A stretch of DNA of 55,818 bases from NCBI GenBank assembly GCA_008330645.1, contig VLTN01000104.1:1-55818 (forward strand). Direction: 5' to 3'. The notes beneath the pieces were generated by a model, which ran no database searches, was not told the origin of the DNA, and saw only the letters and a program-made list of their open reading frames with translations. The first letter of the stretch is position 1, and each line of letters opens with the position of its first letter. Source of the DNA: Cafeteria roenbergensis. Lineage: Eukaryota > Sar > Bigyra > Bicosoecida > Cafeteriaceae. The position numbers were made by a program, and so were the translations under genes. Of this stretch, positions 21,409-45,268 are shown one piece after another.

Positions 21409-21445
21409 GGCGCTGGCAGTGGCGTGCGCATTTGTTCATAGCCCG

Positions 21446-21482
21446 ACGGTCACCAATATATACACAACATCCAATATATGGG
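21446..21482. promoter_or_regulatory. AT-rich divergent promoter with duplicated CCAATATAT
   Basis: Between the divergent GAA1-like gene (start 21408) and metzincin gene A (start 21760) lies a short AT-rich island in very GC-rich surroundings. It carries two direct copies of CCAATATAT, at 21453-21461 and 21471-21479, 18 bp apart. TATA-like cores read on both strands. A shared bidirectional core promoter is inferred. Confidence 0.5.
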
Positions 21483-21759
21483 TTCAGGCTCAGGGCTGCG
21501 GGGGACCGTGTGGTGCTTTAAAAGAGCCGCCCGAGCCTCGAGTCAGCAGGTTCCACCGGTGGAGAGACATGACAGCAATGCCAGAGGCGGCAGCCGAGCT
21601 GCAGATCTGCTCCCGGAAGCAGAGCCAGGATTGCCGGCGAATTGCAAACATTGCGCGTCCACGTCGCACACGCATCACGCAACTGGCACCCCTGAAGAAG
21701 AAGCCAAGGCAGAACAGCCCAGCTCAGGCGTTGCCCCAGCTCGAAAGCGTCTGGCCTCG

Positions 21760-24700
21760 ATGCAGCCGAGATGGGTGGGGAGTCTGGCCTTTGCCGCAGC
21801 AGCGCTGTGCTGCTTTGGCGTTGACGCAAAGCCCGGCGGAACGTTCCGCCAGCTCCAGAAAGCGTGCGACACGCTCCTCGACCCTGATCTGGAGCTCGGT
21901 GACAGCGCTGCCGCGCTCTCGGCCTGCGCAGCGTACGTCCAAGACGAGCAGCCGTCCGCTCGCGAGGTCGCTGCTCTCGCGGCGCGCGCCCGGCGCCTCG
22001 GGATGGCCGGCAACACGGAAGCCGCCGACTTTGCCTTGAGCGCAGCGCTAACGCAGCTGTCTCGGAGAGGCAGCATCCTGGAAGGGGTTCGCCGCGTGGA
22101 TCAGACTGGAACGGTCGAGCCCACGGAGTGTCTCCCAATCTGGCGCACAATCGAGCACGACCGCCAAATGGCACAGACCGACGGCGAGGAGGCGGAGGAG
22201 TCTCGCATCCGGCTCAACGCGCTCGCCAACGATTGGCGGCGGGACCACGGTCGCCTCCGGGCGCTCGGTTCCAACGCTGCTGCCACCGAGGCGAGCCGTG
22301 ACGCCATCCTGGATCACATTTCCGCCGTCTCGCGAGCCACGGACTGCGACTCGTCCATGGTCACGTTGGGGGACGGCTCGTGGTTCGACGTCGCGACGCT
22401 GAGCAGCGACACTCGCTTCCGCCAGGGCGCCTTGAATGCGCCGCTCCACGGTTGGTTCCTCACGACCATGCACATTTTCGTGCCCGAGCAGCTGCAAGAC
22501 CTCTGCGAACGGGCGCCGGCCGACGGCCGAGCCCTTGGTGCTCAGGCGGAGTCCTCGAGCCCGGGCCCGAGCGCGGTGCTGTGCAGGCTTGCCGACGGTG
22601 AGGCCGGCGGAGCGGGCCGTCGCCTGTTCGAGTCCCCGCAGCACCACGCGGACGCAGTGGAGGCGGCGTTTGCGCACGCTCGGCAACTGTCGCTCAAGGC
22701 GCTCAGCAACAAGGACCGGACTCGCGGCCAGCGCACGCGCGTCATGTTTGCCGTGGACTTTGAGGACCAGCAGTGGACGCCCAGCGCCGACGAGGTGATC
22801 CGCGTGTTCAAGCGCGGCGCGCGCGAGACGCAGGCCAAGTACGACCTGATGAGCTACGGCGCATGGCAAGGCAGCGAAACCGTGCTCCCCACGATCTACC
22901 GCGTTGTGAACGCGACCTTTGCCGAGGTCCGTGCCGCAGCAAGCGCGGCGATGCTTCGCTCGGTCGGAGAATGGATCGTTCAGAACCACCCCGACCCGTC
23001 CAAGCGCGTTCGGCTGTCCGACTGGGACCATCAGTCCATCACCTTCCCAGACATCAACACCTTCTCGTGGGCCGGGCTGGCCCAGGCGCCGGGGTCCTTC
23101 GGTGAGCTGCTGGATTCTGCGTGCACCTGGCAGTGGCGCCTACTCTGTTGCAAACGGCGCGGCGCGTGCGGCCTGTCGTGTCGCGACTGCTCCCGCTCTG
23201 TGGGCTCCGCTCGTGCTTGCCTTGCCCGCAGTCTGGCTCCAGGGGGGCTACCGCGGGGCTGCCTACGCCGTGATCCATGAGAACGGCCACAACCTCGGCT
23301 TGCTTCACGCGGGCTTCCTGACCAATGGCTATGGCAACCAGAACGACAACATGGGGTGCTGCAAGCGCGGTCACTGGTTCACGCAGCGCAAGGCCGCGCT
23401 GCACTGGATCCCCCGGGGAGTCATCGCGGAGGTGGCGCCGTCGGGCGCATCGCCCAGGTGTCCTCACTGCTCGAGGGGCGGCTCGTTTGCGGTTTGGCCG
23501 CACGACGTGGGCGTGCTTCCTCCCGGCTTCGAGTCGTACCCGGTCTTGGGTGCCACGAGCGATCCGCCTCGTGGCGACGCCAGTGACGGTTCGCCGGTGA
23601 CGACACCAGCCCAGCCTGGTGCGACTGTGTTGTCGGTGGTGGTGGCGTCCAACCCGGCGTCCCATTCTGGCGTCGATGGGCAGGACCAGCTTTGGCTGGA
23701 TGCCAAGGCGGAAGAGACGGAGACGGGGGCCGGCCAGCTCCTCATGGCGCTGGCCAGGACGACGACGTCACAAGTGAAGCAGTCCAGCTACCAGCCCACG
23801 TCGTCGCGCAAAAACTGGGGCCAGTCGTCGCTGAGCCGCGGCGATGCCTTCGTGGCGACCAGCGAGCGCCTTATAGGTATCTCGGGCGTGGCACCCATGT
23901 CAGGCGACCGGCTGCTGGATGCCATCGGGGTGGGGTCGCGGCCTGCGATGCTGGTCGAGTCCCTGACTGAGTTCGAGGCCGTGGCTGCTGGGTTGCTTCC
24001 GCCCGGGCAGAGCGGGTCAGCGTCGAACGGCACCTTCGCCGTCGGGGTGGAGCCACAGCCCAAGCCTGTGCCCAACAACTTTGAGGTCATCCCGGCCGCG
24101 ACCCGGCCGGAGCTGGTGCAGGACCGCTGCTGGCTTGGGGTGAACGCAACTGCAGGGGCAGGTCTTGCCACCCTTGACGATGCGGCGTGCTCGTCGATCG
24201 TGCGTCCCGTGCGTGTGGGCTTCCTCGGGCCGTCTGGGGAGCGCGCAACGTTGGGCGGTGGGTGCGATCTGGCCCGCGGGATGCGCTGCGAGGTGGCCCC
24301 CAGCACTGGCCACGGCGAGGTGCGGGTGACACCGGGCCAGCCCGTTTCGGAGGGCGCTCCTGCAGGTCTGGCAGCGCTTGCCTCTGCGCTGTCCGGGCTC
24401 GAGTACCACGGCTCGGTGGTGGCCCCGAGCGTAGACGCCCCGGTGGGGGGCTGGACTCCGCGTCGTCGCCTGTACGCTCCCACGTATGTATCAACGGATG
24501 CGAACCTGCTGGTGGTGTCGTGCGCGGAGCCGACGCAGCCTGCCGCCTCGTCGGGCGTGCGTGTGAGCAGCGAGGACACGTTCGTAGCAGCATACGCCGG
24601 TGACTTCCCGGTGCACGAAGTGTCGACGTACGGTGCACAACCGACGTCAGCACTGGGCCCTATCGGATGGGCGCGCGGCGGCCCCAACGGTGTGTCTAAG

Positions 24701-27700
24701 GTGGCGAGCTCCCTGGGAGTGGACACGAGCGCGATCCAGGGCATGTGCGGGGCGGGGGCTGGGGCGGCCGCCTTGGTGATGTCCAGCTCGGGGAACAGCG
24801 TGAGCGCGCGCGCCGCCGCCCTTCGCGTCGACGCGGCGTCAGGGAAGCCGTCCACGGTCGTGGGCGGCCTGCCCTCGGCCTCCGCACACGGCCTACCAGG
24901 CTCGCTTCTGCCGTCGCTGCACATCGTGGCTGGCGGGCTTCGCAACAACAGTCTCACGAGGCCGTGGAGCAGTGCGCCGGTTCCTGAGCGGGGCCAGACA
25001 GGAGCAGGTCAGCTGCGGGTGGTGGTGCACGTGATGACGCTTCCAGTGCTGCCGGTCACGCGTGTGCGATTCACTGGAGGCGTTTACCTCCAAGGCGACT
25101 ATTTGTTGGACATCAGTCGAGGCACCCACAACGGTCAGAGAGTTTGGTCTCGGGAGTCAAACCCCGACATTCTGCTCTTCTTCACGGGGACGACTTGGCG
25201 CACTGCGACCTCTCTCGCAGCAGAATGGTACGGCGACGACGTTGAGCCAGACCCTCGGTCCGCGTTCGGGCAGACAGTCTTAGCAATCAACGGCCAACAC
25301 GGCATCTTTGCATACGCCTCGTGTCGGTCGGGGTATCGATTTTCATCCAGCATACGTGCTGGCTCGGAGCCACTCGCCGTGCTTGGAGCCTGCTCAGCGT
25401 GCCCTGGAAGTCGCGAACGAAACGATGGCGGCACTTGCGTCTGTCCTGCTGGTCAGCAGCCCCTCATCTCGGGGTCGTCCACGTCGGGATGCGCCCCTTG
25501 CCCCGTGGGCACGTACAAGTCTTCGCCGGGCAATGGGCTCTGCACCACTTGCGCCAATGGCGCCAAGACGGCTTCCAGTGGAGCGGTGAGCATCGGCTCA
25601 TGCGGCGACGTCAAAGACGAGGAGTTCCCATGGGACATTCGCGAAGACGTTGACTTTGAGACTGTGGTCGGCAGTCATCTTGCCACCGCATTAGTTGACT
25701 CGCCTGTCAAGCCCATCGCAATGCCGGACTCAGTGGCGCCCGGCGATGCGGCATCCGCTGGTCTCCCTGGCGCTGTTCGCGGCAAGCATGGCTGGTGCAG
25801 AGTCCTTCATGCGTCCGGCTTCGTCAACGCAAACGGGTTCAACACGTTGTGGAAGAAGGCACCAGGACTGACATACGGGTCTCGCCCGGTGTACGAGGTA
25901 GCGGACGAAGGTAGCTGGCTGAGATCCAAGGAAGATTCAGAGCTCTTGAACGAGGGGGGGCCTTGGCAAATTTTCAAGACCAAATCTCCAGCGGATGCAT
26001 ACTTCTACTACCTGGTTGGTGAGGCGTTGGGCGAAGCCGTGTCGCTCGCCCCGTTCATCCACATGGTCTCTGATCAGTCGTCCACCGCTGCCCAGCGTGC
26101 CTGGCAGGACAGGGCGCAATGGTACAAAGACTGGGGCGCGGCCCAAGTGTCGTTCCGCTGCGTCTGCAACGATGCCGACCCCTTTGCCGACACGGCGCCA
26201 GACTCCCACCCTTGCGTCGACCCTGCGACGCTCGGCGCAGTGCCGTCCGGCTTCACCATCACTCACTCGCCCACCTGCGGGCAAGGCTACAAGCTCCAGG
26301 ACGGCAACTGCGTGGACGTGGACGAGTGCGCCACGCTGCCGTCGCCGTGCGGGACTGTGGGGTGTGTGAACTCCGAGGGCTCGTTCCACTGCTCCTGCCC
26401 GGCTGGGATGGCGGGCCTGGACGTCGCGCCCGACCTGTGCAGGCCGTGCCCGGCAGGAACGTTCGCCGACGCGGCGCTGGGCAGGTGCAACCGCTGTCCC
26501 TCGGGCTCCACCGCGCCCGCAGGCACAGCAGGCATCGAGGGGTGCAACTGCTTGGCGGGTCACTTCCGCGCGTCGGGGGCCCCGGCGAGCGCCTCGTGCG
26601 TCGCGCCGGACACGTCGGTGCTGTCGATTCCAGGGTCGGCCGCGGCGGTGTTCGTGTCCGCGCCTGCGCTCCTGCCCGCTGCAGCGGGGTCGCTCAAGTC
26701 GTCGCTGGGACTGAGCGGCGTGAAGCTGGAGGCCGCCCAGCTCGGGATGAGCACTCTGGGGTCCGCGGCGCATGCGTCGCTCGGGGCGGGTCTGACGTCT
26801 GCGCCGTTCATGTGGGGGGCGCTGGCGAGCAGCGAGAGCGGGCAGTCGTGCTTGCCGGCAGTGACGGGGGGCGCCGACGCGGAGGTGGCGCCCTGGTGGG
26901 TCGGGCACCCGTCTGCCTCGCTGAGCGGCTTCGCCATGTCGCCGTCGACGGCGGGAACCAACGCGCTGGCGCGCGCGTCCGGCATCGTCGGGAACGGGTC
27001 GAGCGCCTTGCTGGTCCGCCCTGAGGACGCGGACCGGGACGGCAGCGAGGTGGATGTGCGAACGGGCCGTCTTCCGGCCGGGCTGGGCGCGCTCGCGGAC
27101 TTGGACGCGTTCGCAATGCACCCAGGTCCGCGGCCGTCGACGTCGGCCCGTTCCGGGTGCTGGAACGCGTCGTTCATCCTGCCGCCGCCCGTGTCGGAGC
27201 GGCTGCGTGCGGGCTTCGTGCCGATGTCAGCCACCGACAGTGCGCTTCGGCGCGCGATCGGCGCAAGCAAGGGACTCGAGGCGGTGGTGCGGTCCGGCGT
27301 CCCGCTGCTGCGCAGGCAGTCCGAAGTGCCGGCCAGCGCGTCGGGCCTGCTCTTCGCCCGGCCTGCATCAGCTGAGCGCCAGGCATTCGACGGGCCTGTG
27401 CTCGCTGTGGGGGCGACTCCGCACGACGACGGGTGGCGCGTGGCGGCGGCGGTGGCTCCGCAGTCGACGTCTCACAGCCTGGCCGTGAACGGGTCGTCGT
27501 GGCATGCATCTGCGGCCGTGCCGTCGACGCTGGGCCTGGGCCTGACGCGCGTGTTCGACTCGGAGAGCGGCGAGTTCGAGCTGGCCGCGCGGGCCAGGGG
27601 CTCCGCGGGCCGGTCGGCGGCGGAGGCAGAGGCCACATCGTCTGTGTCCAACACGGTGGGGATGCCTCGCGGCAGGGCGGTGGTCCGCGACGCGTTTGCT

Positions 27701-30700
27701 GGCCCGAGCTGCGTGACGCTGGCGGGCCCGGGCGGGCTCGCTCGAGCTGCGTGCGGCGAGGGCGCGTTCCTCGCGCAGGGGTGTGACGCTGTGCTCGGGG
27801 ACGGCGCGGGCGCGGGCGGGCGCGCGGGAGAGCTGCCAGTGCGCTCGCCAGTGCCGTCGGGCGCGTGCCAGACGTGCCGGAGCTGCGGCGCGGGGGAGGT
27901 CGAGGTCAGCCCCTGCACGCCGCTTGCGGACGCAGTGTGCCGCAGCGGGTCGCTTCCGCTCTCGGCGGCAGGCCGCTGCTCCGCCGTGCCGCAGGCGTGC
28001 GGCGAGACCAGCGCGTGCGGCAGGTGCGCGGCAGGCATGTGGTGCGCCGCGGCGGGCGACTGCGCGGCGGGTCACTCGTGCGTGATGGCGCCTGCTGGCG
28101 AGGCGTCGACGCGCCGCCTGCAGGCCGCGGGCGCGCCGGAGGGGCGCAGTGGGGTGTGTCTGCCGCTGGCTGCGTCGTCGTCGGCTGCGTCGGTGGTGAA
28201 CGCCTCGACTCCAGAGTCGATGCGGCGGGGCGCGGCGGGGTCCGTTGTGTCGCCACCGCTGCGCGAGGGTCAGCTGGCGGCGCTGGTGGTGTCGGGCCCG
28301 GGACTGACGGCCCGCGACTTCGGCCCTCTCCGCCACCGGCTTGCGGTGGAACGCGCTCTGCGTTGGTCCATCCGCGCGCGCCTCGCGGGCCGGGCGGACG
28401 CGATGGTGCAGCTTGTTGCTGCTGTGGAGGGGGACCCCGCACTTCGGCGATGCTGACGCACGTGGGGGCGCTCATCAACGCGGGCTCGGCGGCGCTGGCG
28501 CCTGCGGACTTGTCGAGCCTGGTGGCGGCGCACTCGTCGGAGGGGTCGACGGACGCGGACATTGCGTCTGCGGCCGACGCGTTCGGAGTGTCCAGCCGTC
28601 CGGAGGGCCCGGGCGGGATGCCACAGGGTCTGCCGCCGAACCTGACGGAGGCAGCGGTCCAGTCCAGCGGCCCTGGGAGCCGCGCGGTGGTCCTGCTGAT
28701 GCGGGTGCTTGCTCTGGCGCCGCCGTCGATGGGCCCGGATGTGGGCCAGCACCCGAGGCTGATGGTGCCGCCGGTGGGGCAAGACGGGGGCGCGCCGCCG
28801 CGGTCGGCGTCCGGGGTTGCGGCCGGGATCGCGTCGAGCGCAGCGGCTGCCTCGGCGGTCCGGGCAGCGCTCACGGCGGCGATATCCGACGTGTCGACGG
28901 CCGGGTCCATAGCCTCGATGGCACGGGGGCTGCTGTCGGGCTCGTCGGCCGCAGAGGCGTCGCTGGCGTCGCGTCTGATCTCCACGGTTGCCGGATCACC
29001 ACCTCGGATTCTTGATCCAGTTGCCGATTCAGTGCGCAGCATGCCTTGGGAGGAGGCCCGAGTCGCGTTTGCGTTCGAGACTGGTGCGGGGGCGACCGCC
29101 GCCTTCGTAGCATCGCAACAGAGTGGCTGCCTTCTGGAAGACCCTGAAGATGAAGGCGGCGCGGCTCCCGCAGCAGTCGCATGTGATCGCGTGCTCAAGC
29201 CGTCGCCGACGCCCTCTGTTTCGTCATCACCATCCCACTCTCCTTCCGTTTGCCCAACACCCCAACCTTCGTCCTCCGAGTCACCGTCGAGCTCGTCGAC
29301 TCCAACACCAGCTCAAACTCCGACGGCTGATCCTTCGCCAGACCCCTCGTCAACGGCCCAGTCCTCGGCCTCAAGTCACCCCAAGCCGACTGAGAGCCCA
29401 TCCGTGTGCCCGACGCCAGAACCTTCGGCGTCCTTCCAGCCTTCGACGACCCCTCAGCCCTCGGTATCCTCCCAACTTTCGGCGACTTCGCAACCCAAGC
29501 CGACATTGACGTCTGCTCCAGGTACTTCGCCTCGAGCTTCAACTCTGCCTGCAGGGTCGCCTTCAAGTGTCGCTGCGAGTCCGTCCCAGCTGCCGACCCC
29601 GTCGCCGTCCTCGTCATCGCTTCCCGTCCCTTGCGAGTTGTCCGAGGTCCGCACCTCCAACTGCAGCAAGTCCTGCGGCGACGGCGGCTACCAGTACCAG
29701 TTCCGCAGGATTCTCGGCCTTCCAGCCCACGGCGGGGCAGCCTGCCCGGAGCCTGCGCAGCTCGTGACCAAGACTGTCTGCCCGTCATCCGTTTCCAGCG
29801 CGTTCTCTGCCTGCCCGGCCAACGACCCTTGCACCGTTGCGCGTCCGACGTGCGGCGCCTCGGCTGGGGCCTGCAGCCTGTGCCCGTCCGGGAGGAGGTG
29901 CACAAGCAGCGGCGACTGCTTCGCCGGCCTGGTGTGCCGCTCGCGGGCGTCGGGGTCCGGCGTCCAGGTGTGTTTGGCTCCGCTTCCATCGCCTCGTCCG
30001 GGTGCTCGGCAGCGTCCGATCGATGAGACGCTTCCGCCGCTGGGCGACGTCGTGTCGGGCAAGTCTGGCAGCGACGTGACGGTTCGGCAGCCTGCGGCGA
30101 GCGACTCGGCGGACGGAGTCGTCGTGCAGGTGACGCTTCGCTTCGGCTCCTGGGCTGTGCTCAGCTCCCCGGCTGCCACTGCTGCTATCCAGGCAACTCT
30201 TCTTGGGCTCGTCAAGGCACTGGGGCTCCCTGCTGGCGCCACAGTGAAGATCGACCTCGTCGTGCAGGACGACAGCGGGGGCGGGAGCAGCGGTCGGCGT
30301 CTGCAGGCTGGCGGCGCATCTGCGCTCGCTGTCGTGGGCGTGGATCTCAACCAGACCTCCAGCGACGACCCCGCGTTCGGCTCGTCGGTGTCGGCTGCCT
30401 CTCGGCTCGGGGCGAGCGTGGCGCAGCAGCTGGGCTCCACGTCTGGGACGGTGGGGGCGGCCTTGCTCTCGGCGATCATCGAGGCGGACCCGGCGGCGGC
30501 GGAGGGCGGTGTGAGCGTGGACGCGGACGCCCGGTACGCTGTGCTAGCGGCGTCGGACGGGGCCGTGGTGGCAGGCTCGGAAGACGTGATGTCGTCGCAG
30601 GACGGCGGAGGCGGCGGAGGCGGCGGAGGCGGGGACGGGGATCCGTCCGTTCTGGGAGCTGCGCTTGGCGGGGGGCTGGGTACGCTGGCGCTGCTGCTGG

Positions 30701-30819
30701 GGATTCTGGCCGTGGTCTACTGCTGGAAGCGCAAGCCAGCGACGTCGCCGGTGTCTCCGGTTACGTCAGCTCACCCAGAGCTCGAGAGTACCGCCGCATC
30801 TAAGGTGCTTGCAGCTTGA
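21760..30819 (+). CDS. Metzincin A: secreted/membrane-anchored M11 (gametolysin-type) metalloprotease with EGF, Cys-rich and TSP1-like modules
   Basis: The start at 21760 gives a signal peptide (MQPRWVGSLAFAAAALCCFG). Exon 1 ends at 23101, a 130-nt intron (23102-23231, gtgagctg...cccgcag) is removed, and exon 2 begins GTC-TGG. Order: helical N-terminal region; M11-like core (RTRVMFAVDFEDQQW, SYGAW); zinc motif HENGHNLGLLH at about 23276 with Met-turn DNMGCC; Cys-rich modules; a divergent pair of modules (about 25060-26030); Ca-EGF (DVDECATLPSPCG); TNFR/ephrin-like Cys-rich repeats; Ala-rich region; a roughly 150-residue Ser/Thr/Pro stalk (about 29200-29630) containing SPSVCPTP twice; a TSP1-like domain (SNCSKSCGDGGYQ); a C-terminal domain; poly-Gly; one TM helix; a short tail. 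A missing G in 28429-28433 (five here, six in gene B) breaks the frame and would end the protein at 28456. Adding it gives 2,976 aa with exact phase to the stop at 30819. Expected at the cell surface or in wall/matrix remodelling. Confidence 0.8.
21872..30819 (+). repeat. Tandem duplication, unit 1 (metzincin A)
   Basis: The sequence from about 21872 to near the A stop matches 31112-39714 at a starting offset of 9,240 bp, with very few substitutions except in sharply bounded divergent blocks. The 5' boundary lies just downstream of the signal-peptide codons, so the two upstream regions and signal peptides are unrelated. Confidence 0.9.
23102..23231 (+). other. 130-nt intron in metzincin A
   Basis: GTGAG donor and ttgcccgcag acceptor. 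Removal joins phase-1 exons and connects the frame ending at 23280 to the zinc-motif frame. Unspliced, the first frame stops at 23280 just before the HExxH motif is completed in frame. The orthologous stretch in gene B is 32341-32470. Confidence 0.75.
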
Positions 30820-30999
30820 ATTGCGTGCAGCGTCCTTGAGCTCCAATGAAAAGCCACAGTCGCTCGTGCTCTTGGAATGTATTTGCGAGCTGAAATATTG
30901 CTGGCGTTTCTGCCCGCAAAGACCTGCGCGAGCGGCCGGCTCTATGCCACGCCGGCGGCTTGGGGGCCCAGAGCGCTGCCCAGCTCGCTTGCCAGGCAA

Positions 31000-33900
31000 A
31001 TGTGGACGCGTATTCAGTTGCTTAGTGCTTTGGCATCGGTGCTAGCCGCGCAGGTGATCGCTGCGTCGGAGACGCGGGCACAAGCTGGTGCTGCTGGAAA
31101 CCAATGCACCGCGCTCCTCGACCCTGATCTGGAGCTCGGTGACAGCGCTGCCGCGCTCTCGGCCTGCGCAGCGTACGTCCAAGACGAGCAGCCGTCCGCT
31201 CGCGAGGTCGCTGCTCTCGCGGCGCGCGCCCGGCGCCTCGGGATGGCCGGCAACACGGAAGCCGCCGACTTTGCCTTGAGCGCAGCGCTAACGCAGCTGT
31301 CTCGGAGAGGCAGCATCCTGGAAGGGGTTCGCCGCGTGGATCAGACTGGAACGGTCGAGCCCACGGAGTGTCTCCCAATCTGGCGCACAATCGAGCACGA
31401 CCGCCAAATGGCACAGACCGACGGCGAGGAGGCGGAGGAGTCTCGCATCCGGCTCAACGCGCTCGCCAACGATTGGCGGCGGGACCACGGTCGCCTCCGG
31501 GCGCTCGGTTCCAACGCTGCTGCCACCGAGGCGAGCCGTGACGCCATCCTGGATCACATTTCCGCCGTCTCGCGAGCCACGGACTGCGACTCGTCCATGG
31601 TCACGTTGGGGGACGGCTCGTGGTTCGACGTCGCGACGCTGAGCAGCGACACTCGCTTCCGCCAGGGCGCCTTGAATGCGCCGCTTCACGGTTGGTTCCT
31701 CACGACCATGCACATTTTCGTGCCCGAGCAGCTGCAAGATTTCTGCGAACGGGCGCCGGCCGACGGCCGAGCCCTTGGTGCTCAGGCGGAGTCCTCGAGC
31801 CCGGGCCCGAGCGCGGTGCTGTGCAGGCTTGCCGACGGTGAGGCCGGCGGAGCGGGCCGTCGCCTGTTCGAGTCCCCGCAGCACCACGCGGACGCAGTGG
31901 AGGCGGCGTTTGCGCACGCTCGGCAACTGTCGCTCAAGGCGCTCAGCAACAAGGACCGGACTCGCGGCCAGCGCACGCGCGTCATGTTTGCCGTGGACTT
32001 CGAGGACCAGCAGTGGACGCCCAGCGCCGACGAGGTGATCCGCGTGTTCAAGCGCGGCGCGCGCGAGACGCAGGCCAAGTACGACCTGATGAGCTACGGC
32101 GCATGGCAAGGCAGCGAAACCGTGCTCCCCACGATTTACCGCGTTGTGAACGCGACCTTTGCCGAGGTCCGTGCCGCAGCAAGCGCGGCGATGCTTCGCT
32201 CGGTCGGAGAATGGATCGTTCAGAACCACCCCGACCCGTCCAAGCGCGTTCGGCTGTCCGACTGGGACCATCAGTCCATCACCTTCCCAGACATCAACAC
32301 CTTCTCGTGGGCCGGGCTGGCCCAGGCGCCGGGTCCTTCGGTGAGCTGCTGGATTCTGCGTGCGCCTGCCAGTGGCGCCTACTCTGTTGCAAACGGCGCG
32401 GCGCGTGCGGCCCGTCGTGTCGCGACTGCTCCCGCTCTGTGGGCTCCGCTCGTGCTTGCCTTGCCCGCAGTCTGGCTCCAGGGGGGCTACCGCGGGGCTG
32501 CCTACGCCGTGATCCATGAGAACGGCCACAACCTCGGCTTGCTTCACGCGGGCTTCCTGACCAATGGCTATGGCAACCAGAACGACAACATGGGGTGCTG
32601 CAAGCGCGGTCACTGGTTCACGCAGCGCAAGGCCGCGCTGCACTGGATCCCCCGGGGAGTCATCGCGGAGGTGGCGCCGTCGGGCGCATCGCCCAGGTGT
32701 CCTCACTGCTCGAGGGGCGGCTCGTTTGCGGTTTGGCCGCACGACGTGGGCGTGCTTCCTCCCGGCTTCGAGTCGTACCCGGTCTTGGGTGCCACGAGCG
32801 ATCCGCCTCGTGGCGACGCCAGTGACGGTTCGCCGGTGACGACACCAGCCCAGCCTGGTGCGACTGTGTTGTCGGTGGTGGTGGCGTCCAACCCGGCGTC
32901 CCATTCTGGTGTCGATGGGCAGGACCAGCTGTGGCTGGATGCCAAGGCGGAAGAGACGGAGACGGGGGCCGGCCAGCTCCTCATGGCGCTGGCCAGGACG
33001 ACGACGTCACAAGTGAAGCAGTCCAGCTACCAGCCCACGTCGTCGCGCAAAAACTGGGGCCAGTCGTCGCTGAGCCGCGGCGATGCCTTCGTGGCGACCA
33101 GCGAGCGCCTGGTGGACATCTCGGGCGTGGCACCCATGTCAGGCGACCGGCTGCTGGATGCCATCGGGGCGGGGTCGCGGCCTGCGATGCTGGTCGAGTC
33201 CCTGACTGAGTTCGAGGCCGTGGCTGCTGGGTTGCTTCCGCCCGGGCAGAGCGGGTCAGCGTCGAACGGCACCTTCGCCGTCGGGGTGGAGCCACAGCCC
33301 AAGCCTGTGCCCAACAACTTTGAAGTCATCCCGGCCGCGACCCGGCCGGAGCTGGTGCAGGACCGCTGCTGGCTTGGGGTGAACGCAACTGCAGGGGCAG
33401 GTCTTGCCACCCTTGACAATGCGGCGTGCTCGTCGATCGTGCGTCCCGTGCGCGTGGGCTTCCTCGGGCCGTCTGGGGAGCGCGCAACGTTGGGCGGTGG
33501 GTGCGATCTGGCCCGCGGGATGCGCTGCGAGGTGGCCCCCAGCACTGGCCACGGCGAGGTGCGGGTGACACCGGGCCAGCCCGTTTCGGAGGGCGCTCCT
33601 GCAGGTCTGGCAGCGCTTGCCTCTGCGCTGTCCGGGCTCGAGTACCACGGCTCGGTGGTGGCCCCGAGCGTAGACGCCCCGGTGGGGGGCTGGACTCCGC
33701 GTCGTCGCCTGTACGCTCCCACGTATGTATCAACGGATGCGAACCTGCTGGTGGTGTCGTGCGCGGAGCCGACGCAGCCTGCCGCCTCGTCGGGCGTGCG
33801 TGTGAGCAGCGAGGACACGTTCGTAGCAGCATACGCCGGAGACTTCCCGGTGCACGAAGTGTCGACGTACGGTGCACAACCGACGTCAGCACTGGGCCCT

Positions 33901-36900
33901 ATCGGATGGGCGCGCGGCGGCCCCAACGGTGTGTCTAAGGTGGCGAGCTCCCTGGGAGTGGACACGAGCGCGATCCAGGGCATGTGCGGGGCGGGGGCTG
34001 GGGCGGCCGCCTTGGTGGTGTCCAGCTCGGGGAACAGCGTGAGCGCGCGCGCCGCCGCCCTTCGCGTCGACGCGGCGTCAGGGAAGCCGTCCACGGTCGT
34101 GGGCGGCCTGCCCTCGGCCTCCGCACACGGCCTACCAGGCTCGCTTCTGCCGTCGCTGCACATCGTGGCTGGCGGGCTTCGCAACAACAGTCTCACGAGG
34201 CCGTGGAGCAGTGCGCCGGTTCCTGAGCGGGGCCAGACAGGCGCAGGTCAGCTGCGGGTGGTGGTGCACGTGATGACGCTTCCAGTGCTGCCGGTCACCC
34301 GTCTCAGGTTCAGCAACGGAGTCGTGCTCAGGGGAGACTACCTTTTGGACGTCAGTGCTGGGCTTGCAAACGGCAGGCATATTTGGTTCAGGGAGTCCAA
34401 CCCAACCCATCGGCTCTTCTTCACGGGGACGACGTGGCGAACAGCCAACAACCCAGGGGACAACTGGTGGTGGGACAATGTTCTTCCCACTGCGAACAGC
34501 CCGCAAGGAGACACAGCACTGGCGATCAACAATGTCAAGGGCATCTCCGTGCAGCCGGTATGCTCAAGTGGCTTGGTGTTCCGGGCTTCGCTTCGAATCG
34601 GCTCAGCCCCCTTCGCTGTGCTTGGCGCATGCGAGACGTGCCCATCGGGACGCCAAGGGAGCGACACAGGGACTTGCGACTGCCCTGCTGGCCACCAGCC
34701 GTTGACACCAAACTCGGCGACATCTTCCTGCGTGCCCTGTCCCGTGGGCACGTACAAGTCTTCGCCGGGCAATGGTGCGTGCTCTGCTTGCCCTGACGGC
34801 AAGCCAACGGCGTCGAGCGGCGCAGCCGACAGCTCGGCTTGCGATTCGTCCAAGGACTCAAAACTCCCGTGGGACATCCGCGCCGATGCAGCGACGCCTG
34901 GCCTGATGGGAGTCAGCAACGCAACATCCCTTGTCAGCCCTGCCGTCGTGCCAGTGGCTTTGGTTGCCACGTCATCTGACGGCGTTGCCTCAGCGCCAGG
35001 CCGAGTGCGTGGCAACCATGGCTGGTGCCGAGTCCTTCATGCGTCCGGCTTCATCAACGTCCCGGGAAACAACGCGTGGTGGAAGCGAGAAGCAGGGGTG
35101 TCGTATGGCGCTCGGCCCGTGTACGAGCGGAGCAGCGGCGGGCACTGGCTGAGGTCCAAGGCCGATTCAGAGCTTCTGAATGAGGGGGGGCCTTGGTCAA
35201 CGTACAGCGAGGCAAGCCATGCGTCCCCTCGCTGGTGGAAGCAGCTCTCGGAGGCGACGGGCGAAGCCGTGTCGCTCGCCCCGTTCATCCACATGGTCTC
35301 TGATCAGTCGTCCACCGCTGCCCAGCGCGCCTGGCAGGACAGGTCCTGGTGGGACAAGGACTGGGGCGCGGCCCAAGTGTCGTTCCGCTGCGTCTGCAAC
35401 GATGCCGACCCCTTTGCCGACACGGCGCCAGACTCCCACCCTTGCGTCGACCCTGCGACGCTCGGCGCAGTGCCGTCCGGCTTCACCATCACTCACTCGC
35501 CCACCTGCGGGCAAGGCTACAAGCTCCAGGACGGCAACTGCGTGGACGTGGACGAGTGCGCCACGCTGCCGTCGCCGTGCGGGACTGTGGGGTGTGTGAA
35601 CTCCGAGGGCTCGTTCCACTGCTCCTGCCCGGCTGGGATGGCGGGCCTGGACGTCGCGCCCGACCTGTGCAGGCCGTGCCCGGCAGGAACGTTCGCCGAC
35701 GCGGCGCTGGGCAGGTGCAACCGCTGTCCCTCGGGCTCCACCGCGCCCGCAGGCACAGCAGGCATCGAGGGGTGCAACTGCTTGGCGGGTCACTTCCGCG
35801 CGTCGGGGGCCCCGGCGAGCGCCTCGTGCGTCGCGCCGGACACGTCGGTGCTGTCGATTCCAGGGTCGGCCGCGGCGGTGTTCGTGTCCGCGCCTGCGCT
35901 CCTGCCCGCTGCAGCGGGGTCGCTCAAGTCGTCGCTGGGACTGAGCGGCGTGAAGCTGGAGGCCGCCCAGCTCGGGATGAGCACTCTGGGGTCCGCGGCG
36001 CATGCGTCGCTCGGGGCGGGTCTGACGTCTGCGCCGTTCATGTGGGGGGCGCTGGCGAGCAGCGAGAGCGGGCAGTCGTGCTTGCCGGCAGTGACGGGGG
36101 GCGCCGACGCGGAGGTGGCGCCCTGGTGGGTCGGGCACCCGTCTGCCTCGCTGAGCGGCTTCGCCATGTCGCCGTCGACGGCGGGAACCAACGCGCTGGC
36201 GCGCGCGTCCGGCATCGTCGGGAACAGGTCGAGCGCCTTGCTGGTCCGCCCTGAGGACGCGGACCGGGACGGCAGCGAGGTGGATGTGCGAACGGGCCGT
36301 CTTCCGGCCGGGCTGGGCGCGCTCGCGGACTTGGACGCGTTCGCAATGCACCCAGGTCCGCGGCCGTCGACGTCGGCCCGTTCCGGGTGCTGGAACGCGT
36401 CGTTCATCCTGCCGCCGCCCGTGTCGGAGCGGCTGCGTGCGGGCTTCGTGCCGATGTCAGCCACCGACAGTGCGCTTCGGCGCGCGATCGGCGCAAGCAA
36501 GGGACTCGAGGCGGTGGTGCGGTCCGGCGTCCCGCTGCTGCGCAGGCAGTCCGAAGTGCCGGCCAGCGCGTCGGGCCTGCTCTTCGCCCGGCCTGCATCA
36601 GCTGAGCGCCAGGCATTCGACGGGCCTGTGCTCGCTGTGGGGGCGACTCCGCACGACGACGGGTGGCGCGTGGCGGCGGCGGTGGCTCCGCAGTCGACGT
36701 CTCACAGCCTGGCCGTGAACGGGTCGTCGTGGCATGCATCTGCGGCCGTGCCGTCGACGCTGGGCCTGGGCCTGACGCGCGTGTTCGACTCGGAGAGCGG
36801 CGAGTTCGAGCTGGCCGCGCGGGCCAGGGGCTCCGCGGGCCGGTCGGCGGCGGAGGCAGAGGCCACGTCGTCTGTGTCCAACACGGTGGGGATGCCTCGC

Positions 36901-39714
36901 GGCAGGGCGGTGGTCCGCGACGCGTTTGCTGGCCCGAGCTGCGTGACGCTGGCGGGCCCGGGCGGGCTCGCTCGAGCTGCGTGCGGCGAGGGCGCGTTCC
37001 TCGCGCAGGGGTGTGACGCTGTGCTCGGGGACGGCGCGGGCGCGGGCGGGCGCGCGGGAGAGCTGCCAGTGCGCTCGCCAGTGCCGTCGGGCGCGTGCCA
37101 GACGTGCCGGAGCTGCGGCGCGGGGGAGGTCGAGGTCAGCCCCTGCACGCCGCTTGCGGACGCAGTGTGCCGCAGCGGGTCGCTTCCGCTCTCGGCGGCA
37201 GGCCGCTGCTCTGCCGTGCCGCAGGCATGCGGCGAGACCAGCGCGTGCGGCAGGTGCGCGGCAGGCATGTGGTGCGCCGCGGCGGGCGACTGCGCGGCGG
37301 GTCACTCGTGCGTGATGGCGCCTGCTAGCGAGGCGTCGACGCGCCGCCTGCAGGCCGCGGGCGCGCCGGAGGGGCGCAGTGGGGTGTGTCTGCCGCTGGC
37401 TGCGTCGTCGTCGGCTGCGTCGGTGGTGAACGCCTCGACTCCAGAGTCGATGCGGCGGGGCGCGGCGGGGTCCGTGGTGTCGCCACCGCTGCGCGAGGGT
37501 CAGCTGGCGGCGCTGGTGGTGTCGGGCCCGGGACTGACGGCCCGCGACTTCGGCCCTCTCCGCCACCGGCTTGCGGTGGAGCGCGCTCTGCGTTGGTCCA
37601 TCCGCGCGCGCCTCGCGGGCCGGGCGGACGCGATGGTGCAGCTTGTTGCTGCTGTGGAGGGGGGACCCCGCACTTCGGCGATGCTGACGCACGTGGGGGC
37701 GCTCATCAACGCGGGCTCGGCGGCGCTGGCGCCTGCGGACTTGTCGAGCCTGGTGGCGGCGCACTCGTCGGAGGGGTCGACGGACGCGGACATTGCGTCT
37801 GCGGCCGACGCGTTCGGAGTGTCCAGCCGTCCGGAGGGCCCGGGCGGGATGCCACAGGGTCTGCCGTCGAACCTGACGGAGGCAGCGGTCCAGTCCAGCG
37901 GCCCTGGGAGCCGCGCGGTGGTCCTGCTGATGCGGGTGCTTGCTCTGGCGCCGCCGTCGATGGGCCCGGACGTGGGCCAGCACCCGAGGCTGATGGTGCC
38001 GCCGGTGGGGCAAGATGGGGGCGCGCCGCTGCGGTCGGCGTCCGGGGCCGCGGCCGGGATCGCGTCGAGCGCAGCGGCTGCCTCGGCAGTCCGGGCAGCG
38101 CTCACGGCGGCGATATCCGACGTGTCGACGGCCGGGTCCATAGCCTCGATGGCACGGGGGCTGCTGTCGGGCTCGTCGGCCGCAGAGGCGTCGCTGGCGT
38201 CGCGTCTGATCTCCACGGTTGCCGGATCGCCCCCACTGCTTCCTGACCCATCTGCTGACTCCGGGGGCCGTGGCTCCTGGGAGGAGGCCCGAGTCGCGTT
38301 TGCGTTCGAGACTGGTGCGGGGGCGACTGCTGCGTTCGAGGCCACGCGGCGCGAGGGCTGCAAGCTTGAAGACGCAGAGACAGTCGGTGGCGCGGCTCCC
38401 GCGGCGGTCGCTTGCCTCTGGGCACCGAGCCCTTCCCCGGCCCCTTCCACCGCTCCGACCTCCTCTGTCTCCCCGCGCCCGGCCTCGGGGTCTTCTCTGC
38501 CTTCCCCGTCGCCGTCCTCGTCGCCTCAGCCTGTCGCGTGCAGGCTGTCCGAGGTCCGCACCTCCAACTGCAGCAAGTCCTGCGGCGACGGCGGCTACCA
38601 GTACCAGTTCCGCAGGATTCTCGGCCTTCCAGCCCACGGCGGGGCAGCCTGCCCGGAGCCTGCGCAGCTCGTGACCAAGACTGTCTGCCCGTCGTCCGTT
38701 TCCAGCTCGTTCTCTGCCTGCCCGGCCAACGACCCTTGCACCGTTGCGCGTCCGACGTGCGGCGCCTTGGCGGGGGCCTGCAGCCTGTGCCCGTCCGGGA
38801 GGAGGTGCGCAAGCAGCGGCGACTGCTTCGCCGGCCTGGTGTGCCGCTCGCGGGCGTCGGGGTCCGGCGTCCAGGTGTGTTTGGCTCCGCTTCCATCGCC
38901 TCGTCCGGGTGCTCGGCAGCGTCCGATCGATGAGACGCTTCCGCCGCTGGGCGACGTCGTGTCGGGCAAGTCTGGCAGCGACGTGACGGTTCGGCAGCCT
39001 GCGGCGAGCGACTCGGCGGACGGAGTCGTCGTGCAGGTGACGCTTCGCTTCGGCTCCTGGGCTGCGCTCAGCTCTGCCAAGGCCATGGCAGCCATCCGCA
39101 CGACGCTCATGGAGCTGGTGAGAGCCATGGGGCTCCCTGCCGGAGCCACAGTGAAGATCGACCTCGTCGTGCAGGACGACAGCGGGGCCGGGAGCAGCGG
39201 TCGGCGTCTGCAGGCTGGCGGCGCATCTGCGCTCGCTGTCGTGGGCGTGGATCTCAACCAGACCTCCAGCGACGACCCCGCGTTCGGCTCGTCGGTGTCG
39301 GCTGCCTCTCGGCTCGGGGCGAGCGTGGCGCAGCAGCTGGGCTCCACGTCGGGGACGGTGGGGGCGGCCCTGCTCTCGGCGATCATCGAGGCGGACCCGG
39401 CGGCGGCGGAGGGCGGTGTGAGCGTGGACGCGGACGCCCGGTACGCTGTGCTAGCGGCGTCGGACGGGGCCGTGGTGGCAGGCTCGGAAGACGTGATGTC
39501 GTCGCAGGACGGCGGAGGCGGCGGAGGCGGCGGGGACGCGGATCCGTCCGTTCTGGGAGCTGCGCTTGGCGGGGGGCTGGGTGCGCTGGCGCTGCTGCTG
39601 GGGATTCTGGCCGCGTTTCACTTTTGCAGGAACAAGACAGCCAAGCCCGTGTCGCCGAAATCTGCCGCGGCGCCGGCTGAGCTGGCGAGCAGGGCTGGCG
39701 CGCAGAATGCGTGA
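31000..39714 (+). CDS. Metzincin B: tandem paralogue of metzincin A
   Basis: It begins at 31000 with a signal peptide (MWTRIQLLSALASVLAAQVIAAS) unrelated to that of A. From about 31112 the DNA is almost identical to A, including the M11 core, HENGHNLGLLH (about 32515), Met-turn, EGF and TSP1-like domains, and TM helix (VLGAALGGGLGALALLLGILAAF). The frame is open from 31000 to 39714 (2,904 aa) without splicing. The equivalent of A's 130-nt intron (32341-32470) is retained in frame because B has GGG where A has GGGG just before the donor. If that G is a sequencing loss, the spliced protein is 2,861 aa. B differs strongly from A in the paired modules at about 34300-35270, in a much shorter Ser/Pro stalk (about 38420-38540), in about 20 codons near 39060-39130, and in the cytoplasmic tail. 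B stays open through the G6 run at 37659-37664 where A is broken. Confidence 0.88.
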   Translation: MWTRIQLLSALASVLAAQVIAASETRAQAGAAGNQCTALLDPDLELGDSAAALSACAAYVQDEQPSAREVAALAARARRLGMAGNTEAADFALSAALTQLSRRGSILEGVRRVDQTGTVEPTECLPIWRTIEHDRQMAQTDGEEAEESRIRLNALANDWRRDHGRLRALGSNAAATEASRDAILDHISAVSRATDCDSSMVTLGDGSWFDVATLSSDTRFRQGALNAPLHGWFLTTMHIFVPEQLQDFCERAPADGRALGAQAESSSPGPSAVLCRLADGEAGGAGRRLFESPQHHADAVEAAFAHARQLSLKALSNKDRTRGQRTRVMFAVDFEDQQWTPSADEVIRVFKRGARETQAKYDLMSYGAWQGSETVLPTIYRVVNATFAEVRAAASAAMLRSVGEWIVQNHPDPSKRVRLSDWDHQSITFPDINTFSWAGLAQAPGPSVSCWILRAPASGAYSVANGAARAARRVATAPALWAPLVLALPAVWLQGGYRGAAYAVIHENGHNLGLLHAGFLTNGYGNQNDNMGCCKRGHWFTQRKAALHWIPRGVIAEVAPSGASPRCPHCSRGGSFAVWPHDVGVLPPGFESYPVLGATSDPPRGDASDGSPVTTPAQPGATVLSVVVASNPASHSGVDGQDQLWLDAKAEETETGAGQLLMALARTTTSQVKQSSYQPTSSRKNWGQSSLSRGDAFVATSERLVDISGVAPMSGDRLLDAIGAGSRPAMLVESLTEFEAVAAGLLPPGQSGSASNGTFAVGVEPQPKPVPNNFEVIPAATRPELVQDRCWLGVNATAGAGLATLDNAACSSIVRPVRVGFLGPSGERATLGGGCDLARGMRCEVAPSTGHGEVRVTPGQPVSEGAPAGLAALASALSGLEYHGSVVAPSVDAPVGGWTPRRRLYAPTYVSTDANLLVVSCAEPTQPAASSGVRVSSEDTFVAAYAGDFPVHEVSTYGAQPTSALGPIGWARGGPNGVSKVASSLGVDTSAIQGMCGAGAGAAALVVSSSGNSVSARAAALRVDAASGKPSTVVGGLPSASAHGLPGSLLPSLHIVAGGLRNNSLTRPWSSAPVPERGQTGAGQLRVVVHVMTLPVLPVTRLRFSNGVVLRGDYLLDVSAGLANGRHIWFRESNPTHRLFFTGTTWRTANNPGDNWWWDNVLPTANSPQGDTALAINNVKGISVQPVCSSGLVFRASLRIGSAPFAVLGACETCPSGRQGSDTGTCDCPAGHQPLTPNSATSSCVPCPVGTYKSSPGNGACSACPDGKPTASSGAADSSACDSSKDSKLPWDIRADAATPGLMGVSNATSLVSPAVVPVALVATSSDGVASAPGRVRGNHGWCRVLHASGFINVPGNNAWWKREAGVSYGARPVYERSSGGHWLRSKADSELLNEGGPWSTYSEASHASPRWWKQLSEATGEAVSLAPFIHMVSDQSSTAAQRAWQDRSWWDKDWGAAQVSFRCVCNDADPFADTAPDSHPCVDPATLGAVPSGFTITHSPTCGQGYKLQDGNCVDVDECATLPSPCGTVGCVNSEGSFHCSCPAGMAGLDVAPDLCRPCPAGTFADAALGRCNRCPSGSTAPAGTAGIEGCNCLAGHFRASGAPASASCVAPDTSVLSIPGSAAAVFVSAPALLPAAAGSLKSSLGLSGVKLEAAQLGMSTLGSAAHASLGAGLTSAPFMWGALASSESGQSCLPAVTGGADAEVAPWWVGHPSASLSGFAMSPSTAGTNALARASGIVGNRSSALLVRPEDADRDGSEVDVRTGRLPAGLGALADLDAFAMHPGPRPSTSARSGCWNASFILPPPVSERLRAGFVPMSATDSALRRAIGASKGLEAVVRSGVPLLRRQSEVPASASGLLFARPASAERQAFDGPVLAVGATPHDDGWRVAAAVAPQSTSHSLAVNGSSWHASAAVPSTLGLGLTRVFDSESGEFELAARARGSAGRSAAEAEATSSVSNTVGMPRGRAVVRDAFAGPSCVTLAGPGGLARAACGEGAFLAQGCDAVLGDGAGAGGRAGELPVRSPVPSGACQTCRSCGAGEVEVSPCTPLADAVCRSGSLPLSAAGRCSAVPQACGETSACGRCAAGMWCAAAGDCAAGHSCVMAPASEASTRRLQAAGAPEGRSGVCLPLAASSSAASVVNASTPESMRRGAAGSVVSPPLREGQLAALVVSGPGLTARDFGPLRHRLAVERALRWSIRARLAGRADAMVQLVAAVEGGPRTSAMLTHVGALINAGSAALAPADLSSLVAAHSSEGSTDADIASAADAFGVSSRPEGPGGMPQGLPSNLTEAAVQSSGPGSRAVVLLMRVLALAPPSMGPDVGQHPRLMVPPVGQDGGAPLRSASGAAAGIASSAAAASAVRAALTAAISDVSTAGSIASMARGLLSGSSAAEASLASRLISTVAGSPPLLPDPSADSGGRGSWEEARVAFAFETGAGATAAFEATRREGCKLEDAETVGGAAPAAVACLWAPSPSPAPSTAPTSSVSPRPASGSSLPSPSPSSSPQPVACRLSEVRTSNCSKSCGDGGYQYQFRRILGLPAHGGAACPEPAQLVTKTVCPSSVSSSFSACPANDPCTVARPTCGALAGACSLCPSGRRCASSGDCFAGLVCRSRASGSGVQVCLAPLPSPRPGARQRPIDETLPPLGDVVSGKSGSDVTVRQPAASDSADGVVVQVTLRFGSWAALSSAKAMAAIRTTLMELVRAMGLPAGATVKIDLVVQDDSGAGSSGRRLQAGGASALAVVGVDLNQTSSDDPAFGSSVSAASRLGASVAQQLGSTSGTVGAALLSAIIEADPAAAEGGVSVDADARYAVLAASDGAVVAGSEDVMSSQDGGGGGGGGDADPSVLGAALGGGLGALALLLGILAAFHFCRNKTAKPVSPKSAAAPAELASRAGAQNA
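31112..39714 (+). repeat. Tandem duplication, unit 2 (metzincin B)
   Basis: Second unit of the tandem duplication. Only about 180 bp of non-homologous sequence separate the stop of A from the start codon of B, too short for more than a compact promoter. Confidence 0.9.
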
Positions 39715-39916
39715 CTTTCGCGCTTGGTTTGTCGTTTCTCCACCGTTTGAGTTTTGGTTTCGCTCTTCAGGACTGCTCAGTGCCCCGAGTGCTGGCGTGG
39801 GTCTTGCTTGCAAGCTTCCCCGACGCTGCGTTCCAACAACAGAGTTCCCGCTACGCTGGAGGCGCCGGCAGAGCCGCGGTTTGCTGGCTTGCAAGTGTCG
39901 GCCCGCACTCTTTGCC

Positions 39917-41068
39917 ATGCCTCGCCGTCAGGGCGCGTCTGGACGGGTTCCGGCCCATCAGAACACCCACAAGTTTCATCACAATGCGAACAGCAAGTAC
40001 ACAAAGACCGTGAGCCCGGAGGCCAGCGATGCGGACTCGTTGCACCAGAACGCGCCCGAATGAATCACGTGGACTTGCGTGACCCTCCCCCGCCGTGCGT
40101 GCATCGCCAACCGACGTGGCGCAGGTGCTCGCAATCTCCAATACCGGCGTTTGCCGCCGGTGCTACGAGCAGATCGAGTGGCGAAAGCGGTACCGCAAGT
40201 ACAAGCCCCTCAAGACGCCAGGAAAGTGGTGAGTGCGTGCTCGAGATGAGGGGCAATTCGGGCGCTGATTCCATCGAGCCAGCCTGCCCTGGCAAAGCGC
40301 TGGACCTGAGCGGGGCAGCGCTGCTGGCCTTCTCGCGATGGTCATGCCTGGGCGAGGCAGCGTTTGTGAGCCATCAAGCCTCTCCTCCGGCTCCTATTTC
40401 CCGCCCCTTGCCGCGCCCGCCCATGCCATTGCAGCACCAAGTGCTCCGAGCGCACTGTCTTGCGCGCATATCACACCCTCTGCGCGGCGTGTGGCGAGCG
40501 TAAGGGCTTTTGCTGCAAATGCCAAGGCCCCATCGATGCCGAGCTGACGCCAAAGGACGGCGGTGCGGCACGTGCGGCTGGGGAGGAGGAGGGGGGTGAC
40601 GACGTCAAGGGCGACGCGGAGGCGCATGGTCTCGAAGCCGAGACTGCCCCTGAAAGCGGCGCTGGTGCGGCCGCTGCCGCGGCAGCCAGCTCCGGTGCCT
40701 CCGAGGCCATGCTTCCGACGGGAGGCTATGCCACCAAGCCCCAGGCGATTCAAGACGCCGAGGCAGAGCTGGAGGACTTGTACGCGAGCTCGTGCGGCCT
40801 GCGTGAGCGCAAGCGCCGCTCCAGGATACGCGTGCTAGAGCGCCAGCTTGGCCAGCGGGAGGAGGCGGCCTCGTATGCGGCTGATGCGATTGCCGAAGAA
40901 GACGCCGCCACGGTGGACGAGGCGGATGGCGGTTCAGAGGGCGATGCCGAAGAGGGCGATGCCGAAGAGGGCGATGCCGAAGAGGGCGCGGGCGAGGAAG
41001 CTGCTGGTGCTGAAGCCGACGAGGCGGACGAAGGCGAGGCGTCCACAGCGGGGGGGCCGAGTGAGTAG
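39917..41068 (+). CDS. C9orf85-like DUF2039 zinc-ribbon protein, three exons
   Basis: Homologue of human C9orf85, a small conserved eukaryotic protein of uncertain function. Exons are 39917-40009, 40125-40228 and 40435-41068 (introns 115 and 206 nt; GTGAG donors, CAG acceptors), giving 276 aa. Splicing builds the family pattern: a basic start with HQNTHKFHHN; GVCRRCYEQIEWRKRYRKYKPL; then CTKCSERTV...YHTLCAACGERKGFCCKC. The CxxC pairs form two probable zinc ribbons. The first Cys of CTKC is completed across the exon 2/3 junction, which confirms both splice sites. Human C9orf85 is about 180 aa; the extra length here is an acidic C-terminal tail with a 15-bp coding repeat (three copies from 40937). 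It is convergent with the ThrRS gene. Confidence 0.88.
40937..40988 (+). repeat. 15-bp coding minisatellite in the DUF2039 tail
   Basis: Three direct copies of gagggcgatgccgaa encode repeated acidic pentapeptides (EGDAE). The unit length keeps frame. Confidence 0.85.
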
Positions 41069-44217: not shown

Positions 44218-44359
44218 CTGACAGCGCCTCTGAGAGCGAAAGGGGGCACGAGCCGCTTGTGGCGGAGGAAATTGACGAACTGTGCCCGAGAGCAGTGTGC
44301 TGTGCGCCTACGGCGCCTCCGGCCGCGCCATCGCGGGCTGGCGGGGTCGCCGTTCTGAC

Positions 44360-44389
44360 CGACTGCAGAGCTACCCGGGAGAGAAAAGC
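44360..44389 (+). repeat. 5' terminal inverted repeat, transposon copy 1
   Basis: Thirty bases perfectly complementary to 48781-48810 and identical to 55380-55409. Confidence 0.92.
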
Positions 44390-45268
44390 CAAAAAGCGGA
44401 TGCTCGGAAGAGAAAAGCACTTTTGCGGTATGGACATTGTCCAATCGACCCAAAACTTCGGCTGTGCCCGTTTCCTAGTGAGGCGCTGAAAATGGCCTTG
44501 ACCGATTGCGGCTTGTGCTCCTGGCGCGCGAGGCGCGCCGCGGTTGTCTGCAACGGCTGGCGGGGCGCACCCTCCCAACCGCCCCAGGGCAGCTCCAGCC
44601 CCAATCTCTTCTTCGAAAAGTGTGGGCAGTATGTTTCCATAGCGAATGCATGTGGTCAGGGCGCTGGACTCGCGCTGGTTGGGGAGGCGCCTGCCGCCGT
44701 TGCCGAAAACTTGTGCGCAGCATCCTTCCGCCTGGGAGTCATGTTTTTGAATTTTGAGGCCATCGCACACGTTTTTGTGCTCGTGCAGATCGCGTCGTAC
44801 GCTTTGTTTGCGGTTTTCTTTGAGCGCCCAGCACTTCCCCGACACCTCGACCGTCAGCTCACCCGCCAAATTGAAAAGGATGGAAGACAGCCAGTGACCA
44901 TTTCTCATGGCTCTGGGGTTCTTGAGGTCCCAAAGTCGATAGTTGCGCGGGGCCTTCGCGACGCTGTTGACTGGGGCATTCGGAACGAGGTGCTTGTCGG
45001 TCAACTGCAACTCGGCAAAAACGCCGCCAAACGGGCGTTTGGTGTGGCCTTTGTGATGTCAATACAGTCAACATCCGAGCTAATCTCGCTGCTGAAGTAC
45101 GTTGGGCTCAGGCAATGCAGCAGGGCGACGCAATTTACGGCCAAAGCGTACCCGCCCGTTCCAGCGCAGACGAGGCGAGACGGAGTCTTCGCTCAAGCCG
45201 CTCGAATTGGAGCCAGCAAAGTCCACCCGGCGGCTACTACCAGAGACAGGTGCATCTCTGAACACGGA

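Follow-up and report, generated by a model that had tools for sequence, protein, structure and literature searches.

RHD and RHCE form a paralog pair with a peak of divergence under gene conversion. The human red and green opsins are similarly described as duplicates of low divergence with a sharp peak where their functions differ (PMC3924837), and Tigriopus GOT1p1 and GOT1p2 as a paralog mosaic of low and high divergence with exonic islands, in which rare island conversion made new combinations in some populations (PMC3728101). In Plasmodium, the surface-protein paralogs DBLMSP and DBLMSP2 undergo conversion and carry a deeply diverged domain, one diverged lineage of which is described as common to both genes (PMC10919680). 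Theory and cases of divergence islands under conversion are already published, as these accounts illustrate (PMC3924837, PMC3728101).

Here we analyzed a tandem pair of predicted membrane metalloproteases, genes A and B, in a 55,818-nt stretch of DNA (hereafter, the window) from Cafeteria roenbergensis, an organism described as having no known sexual cycle (PMC6972860). In comparison to the opsins and RHD/RHCE, A and B have five islands instead of one peak, the dS of these islands is high (0.5-1.2), and a functional difference between the copies is predicted only. Unlike the Tigriopus pair, as described, A and B showed no new combinations of islands and, in contrast to the lineage reported as common to both Plasmodium genes, those A islands that could be compared stay A-type. 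Among the best-matching titles and abstract openings, literature on bicosoecids, stramenopile M11 proteases and conversion in stramenopile surface proteins held none on the A/B locus. On the whole, the pair seems to add a clear new case to an evolutionary process that is already known, and does not look like a novel system for diversifying genes.

Structure and family membership of genes A and B

The two genes lie in direct tandem, with the following features:

21760..30819, + strand: gene A, predicted membrane-anchored M11-type metalloprotease; ATG at 21760, stop at 30819
23102..23231, + strand: predicted intron of gene A, 130 bp, GT-AG (GTGAGC...CCGCAG)
23276..23308, + strand: zinc-binding motif HENGHNLGLLH of gene A, followed by a Met-turn-like DNMG
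30646..30702, + strand: predicted transmembrane segment of gene A, placed by offset from that of B (about 39547-39603, from hydropathy of B); homogenized
31000..39714, + strand: gene B, direct tandem paralog of A; ATG at 31000, 180 bp 3' of A's stop
32341..32470, + strand: predicted intron of gene B, 130 bp, GT-AG, called from its splice pattern
32515..32547, + strand: zinc-binding motif HENGHNLGLLH of gene B

Gene B's ATG opens a signal-peptide-like start, and its hydropathy profile shows this hydrophobic start and one clear transmembrane segment near the end. The putative introns, located just 5' of the zinc motif in both genes, were called from their splice pattern and from the absence of the stretch in two homologous proteins, P0002 and P0005, to which A aligns without a jump when read across the intron. 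A third homolog, P0006, also lacks the stretch, its gene model using slightly different splice sites. As assembled, gene A is not one open frame, being interrupted near 28430 by a 1-bp difference in a G run, where it lacks one G relative to B; a further homolog, P0007, has one frame across this spot, and its gene model omits a stretch just upstream. Gene B's open frame starts at 30877, encodes 2,945 aa and runs through the 130-bp intron. Since B is one G short in a G run just 5' of that intron, the long frame is a read-through; its ~43 extra residues are absent from P0006, P0002, and P0005, and the 2,945-aa frame is probably not the real protein. These two single-G differences between near-identical copies in a probable PacBio assembly are likely residual errors and less probably real lesions, and since each copy as assembled carries a frame-breaking indel, A and B are functional only putatively.

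Pfam placed an Ephrin_rec_like domain within one of the divergent islands (block 1, below) and EGF_CA in the backbone, while TNFR-like and TSP1-like repeats scored under Pfam's curated cut-offs. We take HENGHNLGLLH to be the HExxHxxGxxH zinc motif of both genes. The gametolysin/peptidase M11 model (PF05548; cut-off 21 bits) matched the catalytic domains of P0006 (27.5 bits), P0005 (32.4 bits) and P0002 (31.2 bits), and gave no match in the window's own four ORFs, which are split by the intron and the frameshift. A six-frame search of the genome with the Pfam M11 model was likewise without a match and says nothing about absence, since 14 control genomes were equally silent. Thus, the assignment of A and B to M11-type proteases comes from PF05548 in their relatives and from the zinc motif, and their proteolytic activity is predicted. 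Characterized gametolysins are soluble cell-wall proteases, whereas A and B would combine the M11-type domain with a long EGF/TNFR/TSP1-like ectodomain and a membrane anchor.

Identity mosaic and age of the duplication

To describe the pair, A (21001-30897) was aligned with B (30401-39950). The identity profile is not uniform and shows the abrupt divergence that a sequence-only reading of the window had claimed:

A 21760..21871 (B 31000-31111), + strand: island 0, signal-peptide region; 53% identity, effectively unalignable
A 21872..25060 (B 31112-34299), + strand: backbone 1, homogenized; 23 differences in 3,188 aligned bp and one 1-bp gap
A 25061..26028, B 34300..35258, + strand: island 1 (block 1), module, Cys-rich repeat (Ephrin_rec_like), module; 58% nucleotide identity
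A 26029..28997 (B 35259-38228), + strand: backbone 2, EGF_CA and TNFR-like repeats; 22 differences in 2,969 bp
A 28998..29663 (B 38229-38570), + strand: island 2, Ser/Pro/Thr-rich stalk, 324 columns longer in A; 70% of 342 aligned bases identical
A 30158..30237 (B 39065-39144), + strand: island 3, 80-bp juxtamembrane patch; 65% identity, flanks 99%
A 30713..30819 (B 39614-39714), + strand: island 4, cytoplasmic tail to the stop; 49% nucleotide identity

Outside the five islands A and B are 99% identical and differ at 23 of 1,599 fourfold sites; inside them, identity falls to 49-70% and 88 of 175 such sites differ. The longest identical run was 867 bp, whereas none of 10,000 shuffles of the 8,717 aligned positions and their 691 differences gave a run above 223 bp. 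The near-identity claimed for 21901-23100 and 31141-32340 was confirmed (five substitutions and one 1-bp gap in 1,200 bp), as was a sharply bounded block of ~950 bp, for which we found 58% identity over 959 aligned bp and a return to near-identity beyond its end, the flanks of 3,188 and 2,969 bp each being 99.3% identical. The coordinates given for this divergent block were good; its description as a single block did not hold, since five islands are present. The backbone between islands 2 and 3 (494 bp) and between islands 3 and 4 (469 bp) has five differences each, and residues of the tail are 44% identical over 52 codons from 30664. Block 1 comprises two Trp/Tyr-rich modules flanking a Cys-rich repeat, has only 9 gap columns in 968, keeps 11 of 11 cysteines in A and B, and is coherent coding sequence in both. 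Because its edges are located within a single open frame, 3' of the one intron seen, exon shuffling was rejected as its source.

Synonymous divergence followed the same pattern. In four of five coding backbone segments dS was 0.013-0.019, and the fifth (29601-30163) gave 0.050, its limits overlapping the end of island 2; the limits of the dS segments differ slightly from the alignment-based island limits. Islands, in contrast to the ~1.5% outside them, had dS values of 0.54-1.23. For block 1, dN was 0.42 and dS 1.23 (near saturation), for a dN/dS of ~0.34, and the corresponding ratios were 0.39 for the stalk, 0.21 for the patch and 0.8 for the tail and signal-peptide region. Block 1 therefore appears to be an old divergence under net constraint; a ratio below 1 is a sign of constraint and does not mean that divergence is favored, and with no excess of dN at a dS this close to saturation, positive selection is an unlikely general explanation of this block. 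Within each of the long backbone segments, the few A-B differences were clustered over short distances (P 0.002, 0.0004), which fits leftovers between conversion tracts. Seven of the 22 differences in backbone 2 fall in a small cluster next to block 1 (26114-26128) that drives the backbone 2 signal (without the first 60 bp, P was 0.48 and 0.09), and the longest identical run within backbone 1 was unremarkable (P 0.23).

A more distant paralog, C5, provided a scale for the duplication. Two pieces of it are 98.3% and 99.1% identical to P0005 (FNF27_00330 of Cafeteria roenbergensis). In block 1, residues of A and B are 56% identical to each other and each ~35% identical to C5, which puts A and B 0.55 times as far from each other as from C5; the corresponding backbone values are 53-55% identity to C5 and 99% between A and B. 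Scaled by these rates, a backbone without conversion would be expected at ~71% residue identity vs. the 99% seen, suggesting that the duplication is probably old and the backbone was homogenized recently or repeatedly. The tails and block 1 are recognizably homologous yet far diverged, and four separate regions and the 5' end are of similar depth. The stalk of C5 (792000-810000) is a very long and regular Ser/Ala/Thr/Pro repeat that far exceeds the stalks of A and B in length, and within this protease family the length of the stalk seems to be the most labile feature.

Homologs, further copies and neighboring sequence

Protein searches with the 2,945-aa query gave P0002 to P0005, of which P0003 and P0004 cover just 12-18% of the query; P0006 and P0007, each under 0.55 of its length, were found with a shorter query. 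Two pieces of P0006, a protein filed as Symbiodinium sp. KB8, match A's N-terminal part at 99.3-99.6% identity, from the first residue of A to five residues short of block 1 (window 21760-25045). P0007 (FNF31_06941, Cafeteria), presumably from a strain other than the window's given its differing sequence, starts 35 bp 3' of block 1 and extends to the tail. We counted residues that distinguish A from B and at which the homolog matches either, assigning cluster 26114-26128 to the backbone and excluding 189 gap columns (mostly stalk). In the four islands other than block 1, 68 of 69 such residues in P0006 and P0007 were A-type, in contrast to 13 of 19 in the backbone (Fisher P 3e-4, the sites not being independent). 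The sole non-A island residue lies at the edge of the 80-bp patch, and two tail residues fell in neither class. Backbone differences between A and P0006 amounted to five residues, against six between A and B in that stretch; for P0007 the figures were six and 13. The totals, 11 against homologs and 19 against B, are of the same order with the orthologs somewhat closer, indicating that homogenization is incomplete. That islands follow the locus while backbone paralogs are about as alike as orthologs fits concerted evolution. By extrapolation from the other four islands, block 1 would be stable between strains as well.

Outside this assembly, the protein searches revealed no B-type homolog, which leaves a single assembly in which the tandem pair is known; scans of IMG/VR and GTDB returned no relative. 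Considering the 99.3-99.6% identity of P0006 to gene A, the Symbiodinium KB8 assembly very likely holds Cafeteria DNA. Four mavirus-like virophage MCP genes are reported in Symbiodinium sp. KB8 (PMC10120064), and these may derive from a Cafeteria contaminant and not from a dinoflagellate.

The sequence-only reading had also called for a search of the genome for further copies and silent cassettes, and for block 1 none was found among the best candidates in the 36.3-Mb assembly (36,303,456 bp, 167 contigs), of which the window forms one entire contig (C104). Since these searches score best candidates only, copy counts are lower bounds. At the DNA level, the A and B versions of block 1 found only each other. 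A six-frame protein search with the B version gave A, B, C5 (37%), and a weak partial match to the Cys repeat on C21, with no silent cassette among the best candidates; on this scope, a cassette reservoir was rejected. The best candidates for the protease domain included A, B, and C5, and those for the 3' part these three and a C-terminal piece located on another contig, C83. This remnant of a further member of the family (C83:111716-110034, minus strand, 40% identity) runs from stalk to tail and is interrupted by other sequence; the protease-domain (M11) search found nothing on C83, and the remnant was rejected as a donor of block 1. The frame there starts with a peptide common to the starts of two other ORFs (C83:109900-119899), which looks like a mobile-element junction.

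A mobile element also occurs in the window, at 44360-48810: a DNA transposon that has 30-bp terminal inverted repeats and encodes a DDE_1 transposase (ORF 44282-47470). Its first 693 bp have at least four other copies at 100% identity (C42, C60, two on C72, one scoring slightly lower) and four more at 85-96%, and the element was probably recently active. The end of the contig holds another piece of the element, shortened internally and placed 11,020 bp beyond the first (window 44360-55818); since the C72 copies are 11,021 bp apart, the window and C72 may share an 11-kb repeat unit here, or the contig may be redundant. Elsewhere in the window, ~4 copies of a 453-bp repeat, 98-99% alike, occupy 13436-15262 within a 1,898-aa ORF (10902-16598), and minus-strand neighbors encode a guanylate/adenylate cyclase domain protein (2702-8299) and a class II tRNA synthetase (42031-44217).

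Origin of the islands

We consider it quite likely that A and B stem from an old tandem duplication whose backbone was homogenized by conversion around islands selected as isoforms. The ancestor would have been a type-I membrane metalloprotease with a signal peptide, an M11 zinc protease domain, a Cys-rich/EGF/TSP1-like ectodomain, a Ser/Pro stalk, one transmembrane helix and a short tail. Non-reciprocal recombination between the direct repeats would keep copying the backbone from one gene to the other, thereby holding the protease domain, along with the greater part of the ectodomain, at ~99% identity, while five stretches (signal peptide, ~960-bp ectodomain block, stalk, juxtamembrane patch, and tail) escaped. 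Gene conversion of the backbone, with the extracellular block left out, had been proposed from the window's letters and is well supported by the 99% backbone against the diverged block and by the contrast in the homologs. Against this, near-identical copies may have been made to look more alike in the backbone by polishing than they are; published C. roenbergensis assemblies are described as using Racon with PacBio and Illumina reads (PMC6972860). The islands appear old, constrained and stable in the partial homologs compared, and A and B may be specialized isoforms with different targeting, binding partner and signaling end on a common protease. Were they two such isoforms, converted islands would be selected against, and sequence divergence itself would then also block conversion across them. 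We lean toward such selection as what holds the islands.

Whether selection is needed bears on a reading that shares this history: mismatches or indels halted conversion and the stretches then drifted neutrally. An alternative of this kind is described in PMC3728101, the repeat-like stalk with its 324-column length difference is an obvious conversion block, and block 1 evolves faster than the backbone relative to C5 (35% vs. 53-55% identity). However, block 1 has few gap columns, all its cysteines and a dN/dS of ~0.34, and drift does not need as many as five separate escapes, the signal peptide and the tail among them; we therefore give neutral islands about a one-in-three standing, as a serious but secondary account. 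Sharp edges would also arise by cassette exchange, if the tandem duplication were recent and one copy had then taken up divergent blocks from a third gene, and a single event would explain the rather uniform ~1% backbone divergence, but five imports would be required, both gene ends included, from donors of similar depth, no block 1 donor was found among the best candidates in 36.3 Mb, and A-type versions of the other four islands exist in homologs from other assemblies, making import improbable.

The sequence-only reading had favored exchange or diversification of the block in a variable, self/nonself surface system. The block is indeed extracellular, sharply bounded, built of Trp/Tyr-rich modules and known from one strain, and DBLMSP/DBLMSP2 are described as a precedent for conversion between diverged surface paralogs (PMC10919680). 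This reading nevertheless fared poorly: there are two copies, neither cassettes nor donors were found among the best candidates, dN/dS is below 1, indicating constraint, and the comparable islands follow the locus in the partial homologs (68/69), so that we regard a diversifying receptor locus as very improbable. An assembly artefact, whether a false join of two alleles or of unrelated loci or a chimera made in polishing, would suit an apparently diploid organism assembled with Canu from PacBio reads (PMC6972860) and the G-run indel in each copy. Yet A's chain is matched elsewhere, from signal peptide into backbone by P0006 and from backbone 2 through islands 2-4 by P0007, and both versions of block 1 are coherent and retain 11 of 11 cysteines. 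Since four published C. roenbergensis strains are reported within 99% average nucleotide identity (PMC6972860), alleles are unlikely to give an island dS of 0.5-1.2, and an artefact seems just as remote.

Returning to the selected-isoform reading, the islands could conceivably form a co-selected set that gives each protease one 'identity' (e.g., partner or prey recognition plus a matching signaling tail) against steady conversion of the catalytic backbone, a suggestion that we hold to be rather unlikely. For loci of this type, ORF-based reading misplaces introns and conceals homologs, as A's close relatives are two partial proteins. As a clean multi-island case of apparent concerted evolution in a free-living stramenopile, A and B suggest, through their islands, the parts of the protease where the copies probably differ in function.
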